This document shows, piece by piece, positions 24,080 through 58,254 of a stretch of DNA of 64,000 bases. A model generated the notes under the pieces. The model did not search any database, was not told where the DNA came from, and saw only the letters and a list, made by a program, of their open reading frames with translations. The stretch lies in NCBI GenBank assembly GCA_017631885.1, contig JAGBSH010000004.1:1-64000 (forward strand), read 5' to 3'. Source of the DNA: Fibrobacteraceae bacterium. GTDB lineage: Bacteria > Fibrobacterota > Fibrobacteria > Fibrobacterales > Fibrobacteraceae. A program made the position numbers and the translations under genes. Positions within the stretch are counted from its first letter, which is position 1; each line of letters opens with the position of its first letter.

Positions 24080-24445
24080 CAAGTTGTCATAGCAAGTGCA
24101 GTACGAATTGTCATGGCTAGTGCCTTGTGCCTCGTGGCCATCTGTTAGCAAGTTGTCATCGCGAACGTAGTGTGGCGATCTGTTGGCAATGAGATTGCTT
24201 CCACCACGCCACAAGTGTGGCTCGTGGCAGGCTTACATTTAGGCTTCGCAAAAAAATCTTTTCACTCCATCGCGAGTGACAAGAACCGCGAGCAAGTCAC
24301 GGGCAAGTCGCGTGCGATGAGATTGCCGCGCCGAGTATTCTGCACGGCTCGCAATGACAAGAGGCGTGCGGCAAGTTTTCTCGCAAGTAACAAGAATCGC
24401 GGGACAAAGAACTTGCGGCAAGTATAAAAGGCGAGTCATCATCAC
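24080..24445. repeat. dispersed repeat cluster 4
   Basis: Contains TTGTCATCGCGAACGTAGTG, the ~85-nt block with CCACAAGTGTGGCTCGTGGC shared with clusters 2 and 5, and several CGCGAGCAAGTCACGG variants. Inverted CCACACTTGTGG-type arms are visible. The reading frames across it match those across the other clusters and are not genes. Confidence 0.85.
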
Positions 24446-24451
24446 AAGTGT

Positions 24452-24631
24452 GTTAGGGATGGAAGCCCGTCAGGGTTCGGACTCGCTGGATTTTTTTTGG
24501 ACTTTTGGGGAGCGAGGCTGAACGGACGAGTGCCGCGCAAGGATTTGATTGCTAAAAATGTGGCGGCACGAGATAACGCAAGAGCCCGACCTACGCGTTT
24601 GAAGTTTATAACGAAAACCGTAGGAACACCC
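24452..24631 (+). ncRNA. structured GC-rich element T, copy A (putative RNA)
   Basis: A 180-nt non-coding stretch with nested hairpins: AAGCCC/GGGTT (24464-24477), CTCGCT/AGCGAG (24482-24487 with 24511-24516), GTGCCGC/GCGGCAC (24530-24536 with 24563-24569) and CCTACG/CGTAGG (24590-24595 with 24619-24624). Conserved single-stranded blocks TTAGGGAT, GCCCGACC and GGAACACCCC are shared in the same order with the minus-strand copy near 58163. The terminal hairpin is kept in both with different bases. No protein frame is plausible. Whether it is transcribed is unknown. Confidence 0.55.
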
Positions 24632-58162: not shown

Positions 58163-58254
58163 GTGGGCGTTCCCCACTAGCGTGGGTCGGGCTATATTTA
58201 ATTCGCTCACCGAGCCTGTAGTCTCAGGCCCCAAGGGGTCACTATCCCTAATGC
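58163..58254 (-). ncRNA. structured GC-rich element T, copy B (putative RNA)
   Basis: Minus-strand relative of 24452-24631. It shares ATTAGGGAT, GAGCGA, GCCCGACCCACGC and GGGGAACGCCC in the same order. The last hairpin is CCCAC/GTGGG around GCTA, where copy A has CCTACG/CGTAGG. An upstream GACCCC/GGGGCC hairpin replaces AAGCCC/GGGTT. The third hairpin of copy A is missing, making this copy about half the length. A frame read through it from 58128 is not a gene. Confidence 0.55.

Follow-up and report, generated by a model that had tools for sequence, protein, structure and literature searches.

The Flavo-1 RNA ranks with the commonest small-RNA families of bacteria, and we know of no function that has been assigned to it. 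It is entry RF01705 of Rfam (Weinberg 2010; PMC2864571), where it is filed as an sRNA. At the level of DNA, the systems to be compared with the family described here, element T, are the REP sequences of REPtrons (TnpA-REP, RAYT), the MITEs of DD(E/D) or IS200/IS605 transposons and the attC sites of integrons. T resembles the REPs in being short, folded and intergenic, with many copies, genome-specific variants, no target duplication and free orientation, while it differs from them in forming a three-way junction of 60-180 nt, instead of a hairpin of 20-40 nt, and in having neither a GT[AG]G foot nor a linked RAYT gene. With MITEs it shares its non-coding and dispersed nature, its short complementary ends and, presumably, movement in trans, although target duplication was not found, nor was a full-length partner sharing its ends in the fetched loci. 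As regards attC, both may fold as single-strand DNA and end in a variable hairpin, whereas T has no RYYYAAC/GTTRRRY core, carries an extra arm (P3, see below) and does not form cassette arrays.

The window, that is, the whole stretch of 64,000 nucleotides analysed from a Fibrobacteraceae bacterium (contig JAGBSH010000004.1), holds two members of this family, at 24450-24631 (+) and 58165-58254 (-), the consensus of which is GCGTnAGGGAUn…nAGCCCGACC…GGnACGCCC. A preliminary description of this DNA had reported two stretches with shared blocks and hairpins, all of which were found in their place when the sequence was re-read. Folding and alignment of the copies collected with the family pattern gave a longer unit than the one first drawn, namely GCGTTAGGGATAGTnACCC(loop)GGGC, a second hairpin, GAGCGAAGCGAGTATAGCCCGACC, a further hairpin and GGGGAACGCCC, the two ends being complementary. 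Two covariance models were used: R1, built from copies of the genome collection without any Fibrobacteraceae sequence, and R2, a Fibrobacteraceae model including copy 2 and excluding copy 1. R1 recovered copy 2 (E=3.6e-7), while R2, which contains copy 2 as one of its rows and scores it at E=5.6e-20, recovered copy 1 (E=0.0065) as its sole other match in the window. Moreover, the ordered pattern TAGGGAT…GAGCGA…GCCCGAC was present in 30 of 111 Fibrobacteraceae genomes, whereas the reversed control was absent from all 111, which speaks against a chance likeness of the two copies. Their parts are as follows.

24450..24631, plus strand: element T copy 1, the long, derived form (R2, E=0.0065, copy not in the model)
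24450..24454, plus strand: copy 1, 5' arm GTGTT of the outer stem P1, pairing with AACAC at 24625-24629; compensatory to GCGTT/AACGC
24456..24461, plus strand: copy 1, 5' side of P2, GGGAUG; GGG pairs with CCC at 24585-24587 and U24460 with A24583 (sequence, R2 and own-genome count)
24463..24477, plus strand: copy 1, hairpin H1, AAGCCC-GUCA-GGGUU (sequence and R2; helix 3 in the own-genome count)
24530..24569, plus strand: copy 1, extra hairpin GTGCCGC...GCGGCAC, the 7-bp stem of the preliminary description (sequence)
24583..24589, plus strand: copy 1, conserved AGCCCGA, comprising the P2 3' arm and the GA linker (sequence and R2)
24590..24624, plus strand: copy 1, hairpin P3, CCTACG...CGTAGG (sequence and R2)
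24625..24631, plus strand: copy 1, P1 3' arm AACAC and CC terminus (sequence and R2)
58165..58254, minus strand: element T copy 2, the compact form (R1, E=3.6e-7; R2, E=5.6e-20)
58250..58254, minus strand: copy 2, P1 5' arm GCATT, with the 3' arm AACGC at 58167-58171 and one A-C mismatch (sequence and R1)
58243..58248, minus strand: copy 2, 5' side of P2, GGGAUA, pairing with UA.CCC at 58189-58194 (R1 and R2)
58173..58186, minus strand: copy 2, hairpin P3, CCCAC-GCTA-GTGGG (sequence and R2)

Copy 1 is a diverged member of which the outer stem GTGTT/AACAC is itself compensatory; in the pair table of its own genome, the P1 pair C-G is replaced by U-A in two copies. Copy 2 lies directly behind a terminator-like hairpin of the upstream gene. 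Copy 1 is immediately preceded, at 24260-24440, by short repeated blocks of the GCGAGTGACAAG / CGCAATGACAAG type, which apparently belong to another Fibrobacter repeat. The Rfam scan of the whole window returned a cobalamin riboswitch at 1536-1727 (RF00174, 79 bits) and two tRNAs, and nothing beyond these.

The top strand of T forms a three-way junction that includes an A•G mismatch and a small internal loop. It consists of the outer stem P1 (GCGTn/nACGC), the stem P2 (GGG.A.Un / nA.G.CCC) with its variable inner hairpin domain, a GA linker and the hairpin P3 (CC...GG), the invariant letters being GCGTnAGGGAT...AGCCCGACC...ACGCC. The preliminary description had the hairpins right and missed the junction, which is closed by pairing of the P1 ends (GTGTT/AACAC in copy 1, GCAUU/AACGC in copy 2); likewise, the block TTAGGGAT is not single-stranded throughout, as it had been drawn, given that its GGG pairs with the CCC of AGCCCGACC. 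When 51 copies were laid on the hand-drawn junction, 94.6% of the cells were paired and 89 cells carried double changes, against 30.5 in shuffled data and at most 16 when the partners were slid; many letters of this set are fixed by the search pattern, the decisive pairs not being among them. In fact, the fifth pair of P1 was UA in 26 copies, GC in 21 and AU in 2, and a pair inside P2 was AU in 23, UA in 19, GC in 3 and CG in 2. In 75 copies collected with the model, 97.7% of the pair cells were paired, with 186 double-change cells against 50.6 shuffled, a signal destroyed by sliding the partners, and the 12 copies of the window's own genome gave 34 against 10.4. The claim that conserved blocks are joined by stems which change in step was thus borne out at all three scales, and the further copies and covariation in relatives, the search for which had been proposed as a check, were both found. 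The covariation of the T fold is decisive.

The terminal inverted repeats formed by P1 comprise five of five pairs, with 99.6-99.7% of the cells paired, and occur as GCGTG/CACGC, GCGTA/TACGC and GCGCG/CGCGC. P2 changes in step between GGG/CCC, GCG/CGC and AGG/CCT, and in copies of the GCG type the otherwise invariant A•G mismatch is sometimes G•A (e.g. L290, L292). Compensated changes affect both stems of a Microcystis phage copy, with P1 GCGAT/ATCGC and P2 GTG/CAC. As the inner and P3 loops are free, other repeats accumulate inside them: the apical loops of T hold other dispersed palindromic repeats (GTCATTGCGAGGAACGAAGCAATCT, CCTTCGACTACGCTGCGCTCCGCTCAGGATGAC), nested in the inner loop in L249, L239 and L245 and in the P3 loop in L008, L010 and L017.

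When the Rfam structure line of Flavo-1 is set against the hand-drawn structure, it corresponds to the P2 domain of T without P1 and P3: both share a layout of three pairs, a single mismatch, two pairs, a symmetric 3x3 loop, two pairs and an inner hairpin. T differs in adding P1, P3 and the conserved ends GCGTn/nACGCCC, all unmodelled in Rfam, in extending beyond the Bacteroidetes and, within Fibrobacteraceae, in having the extra hairpin H1. RF01705 gave no match at its gathering cut-off across the whole window and nothing meaningful at E<=10 around copy 2, and Rfam made no Flavo-1 call on compact T copies in the scanned Bacteroidota and other loci. Four Arenibacter copies with full T ends that overlap R1 matches (L426, L427, L428, L429) reach 54.6-55.6 bits for Flavo-1 against a cut-off of 42, and T-ended variants from the sucA-sucB spacer of the Polaribacter/Tenacibaculum group (L231, L233, L235) reach 52-61 bits against the same cut-off. 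In this spacer, within one genus-level group, some genomes carry T and others GCGTTAAGGATTGAAACGGCATCC…GATATAGTGGAAAGCCTGTTAAAACGCCC, the latter passing the Flavo-1 cut-off. Since T-ended copies pass it as well, T can be placed as an extended form within a Flavo-1 superfamily. The preliminary description could name no known class; this holds for the window copies, for which the Rfam scan it had proposed returned no family match, and not for the class as a whole, which has a named relative because intermediate copies match Flavo-1. T and Flavo-1 are one superfamily, of which the Rfam model covers one branch and is blind to the window copies, and T is an undescribed, larger, extended form of Flavo-1. 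At one locus, a canonical Flavo-1 (L231:830-905) and a T-ended Flavo-1-like copy (L231:2256-2347) stand on opposite strands, 1.4 kb from each other, on the two sides of one gene region, and similar pairs are seen in L235 and L246. A literature search for the sequence blocks of T found none in a relevant context.

A wider search used the outer parts alone (AGGGAT…AGCCCGACC…ACGCCC), true copies being recognised by the complementary GCGTn/nACGC pair. Among the matches listed, these came mostly from Flavobacteriia and other Bacteroidota, and also from Fibrobacterales and Schlesneria; a Treponema copy was confirmed by covariance model, and further copies lie in viral contigs, a Moraxella catarrhalis plasmid and a Microcystis phage. 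The range of T therefore covers Bacteroidota, Fibrobacterota, Spirochaetota, Planctomycetota, a Moraxella plasmid and phages. In the R1 census, copy number varied from 1 to at least 143 per genome, with 8 matches in the window's genome, 53 in Flavobacterium sp. WG47, 66 in a Bacteroidetes MAG and at least 143 in Arenibacter sp. 6A1. By R2, the window's genome has 12 copies, where two had been supposed. An apparent cluster of T on small Arenibacter contigs was discarded: at least one contig ends in 16S rRNA sequence, and the copies lie upstream of that shared repeat. On a viral contig (L039:302-3535), about 3 kb hold at least four T-like copies, which lie on both strands and overlap open frames; their P1 is sometimes GCGCG/CGCGC or GCGCA/TGCGC. 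Elsewhere, T copies form facing pairs within 150 nt (G128:C1:1216039-1216258, L391:12615-12839), an arrangement which recalls REPIN/BIME pairs.

T is gained and lost at fixed sites. The gene beside copy 2 is kept in 101 of 111 Fibrobacteraceae genomes, and in the loci read from 29 relatives T was never within its reach. The orthologous site is empty in both congeners, one of which (G002) has the same letters across the upstream terminator hairpin and the T-tract behind it, after which the element is absent. In the sucA-sucB spacer of the genus-level group mentioned above, T is present in six genomes, the site is empty in eight and a Flavo-1-like variant occupies it in more than ten; one decayed remnant was also found. 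In several Flavobacteriaceae genera, a further shared site lies upstream of the tmRNA gene ssrA, namely in Allomuricauda, Flagellimonas, Maribacter and Ulvibacter loci, where the stems differ between genera yet remain paired (ends of L053, L139, L163, L129, L156 and L128, upstream of GGGGCCGACYGGTTTTGACAGC); L163 seems to hold an old left end together with a newer T copy. The ssrA copy may go back to an old insertion whose pairing was maintained by selection or by copy-to-copy conversion, or it may mark a preferred site.

The preliminary description took T to be a structured RNA. Such a reading, in which T would be a small RNA or a processing or protein-binding element within transcripts and its spread would be incidental, draws on the strong covariation, on the invariant loop letters, on the listing of its relative Flavo-1 as an sRNA in Rfam and on the fixed-site copies which keep their pairing in several genera. 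The covariation stood, and the RNA status did not fare as well. T has no preferred orientation to genes, since all four classes, resting on mechanically called ORFs, are populated (28/19/17/14 in Bacteroidota and others, 7/4/4/5 in Fibrobacteraceae), and one phage contig carries copies on both strands that overlap mechanically called frames. In a published F. psychrophilum transcriptome, Flavo-1 matches are reported to lie sense or antisense to transcripts indifferently, many of them outside transcripts (PMC9723704). The element is gained and lost between congeners. Moreover, RNA helices normally drift through G·U, while among the variable pairs of T, G·T (4/821) is no commoner than A·C (4/821), so that neither strand's wobble is preferred; the tRNA control from the same loci gave 15/318 G·U, a comparison to be read with the fact that the deficit of T is partly shaped by the search pattern and the model. 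Finally, the top (structured) strand lies on the C-rich strand in a ratio of 79:41 over four complete genomes, in the same direction in all four; with replichores set by the GC skew of sampled 20-kb pieces, p=0.0007 if the genomes are independent, a value which is nominal because they are related and have common insertions. Gene context, pair types, gain and loss and replication orientation together favour a DNA-level element, and the T family is probably a relic of, or an actor in, mobile DNA rather than an RNA gene. The fixed-site copies at ssrA nevertheless keep an RNA, or a local function, alive as an unlikely explanation which retains some weight.

The reading we prefer, and hold to be rather likely, is that T is a dispersed REP/MITE-like repeat, probably non-autonomous and mobile, which acts as folded single-stranded DNA. 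The fold would be exposed as a single strand during replication or transfer, and a putative enzyme supplied in trans would recognise the folded strand, copying or inserting T without target duplication. Insertion would often be into AT-rich 3' intergenic DNA, in some cases directly behind the T-tracts of terminators. The flanks of T show a pyrimidine as the 5' neighbour and, on the 3' side, CCC followed by A-rich DNA; repeats between the two flanks were no more frequent than in shuffled flanks, whichever offset was tried. In the fetched loci, 5' ends without a 3' partner within 220 nt were 4 of 231. Terminators pointing at the 3' end of T are in mild excess (19 vs 7 of 185), and general targeting of terminators was rejected as the excess is only mild. 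Against mobility stands the fact that no mobilising enzyme was found: T flanks no RAYT or IS200 gene of the T-rich genomes, the fetched loci contain no autonomous element that carries a gene between T ends, and T has no recurrent neighbour, only housekeeping genes, some at shared sites. Besides, fixed-site copies in different genera, such as those upstream of ssrA, still form all stems, which could mean function in place or conversion between copies.

A more specific source of mobility, that T is the REP of a RAYT (a REPtron), would fit the taxon and is attractive because Bacteroidetes RAYT genes of subclass 2.6 have unusual flanking structures, without GT[AG]G, which recur in the genome (PMC6006769). 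We nevertheless consider it very unlikely. In T-rich genomes, T lies within 1.5 kb of only 2 of 23 Y1_Tnp genes, both in the genome with at least 143 copies, and flanks none on both sides, while the genomes with 53 and 66 copies (G118 and G119) have no Y1_Tnp gene, and the RAYT of L123 is flanked by its own AGACCTCACAGG palindrome. GT[AG]G at the hairpin foot is not among the invariant letters of T. In the window's genome, a RAYT link was tried and rejected, the only Y1 transposase being an ordinary IS200-like copy with no T nearby. As a separate observation, the RAYT-like gene at L123:1340-2200 (NHFH...YVHTNP) is surrounded by numerous AGACCTCACAGGTTTT...CCTGTGAGGTCT palindromes, which probably make up a REP family of its own. 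That T is a passive transcription terminator or mRNA-end hairpin, as intergenic GC-rich hairpins sometimes beside terminators might suggest, is more doubtful still, for its 3' flank is A-rich and not T-rich, convergent genes enclose only 14 of the 78 copies outside Fibrobacteraceae, and the conserved letters exceed what a terminator needs. Least probable of all is an attC-like integron recombination site, in spite of the folded single-strand site with a variable terminal hairpin and of novel attC-like DNA motifs having been reported (OTH-22-1, PMC8632094), because the core GTTRRRY/RYYYAAC is not kept (the 5' end of T is GTTAGGG, and P1 changes to the GCGTG/CACGC, GCGTA/TACGC and GCGCG/CGCGC forms) and the copies are dispersed among housekeeping genes, with no cassette arrays.

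A broader proposal, which we put forward tentatively, is that T and Flavo-1 might constitute a mobile-DNA class of their own, a three-way-junction single-strand element found in several phyla, plasmids and phages, which would be moved by a putative enzyme recognising hairpins and would long have been filed wrongly among the small RNAs. This family also carries a lesson: covariation alone is no proof of an RNA. The T model allows the annotation of copies that Rfam misses, those of the window included. Placing Flavo-1 in a larger family, whose ends are conserved, whose copies come and go and whose pairs are of DNA-like types, makes of an "RNA of unknown function" a question about mobile DNA that can be tested.
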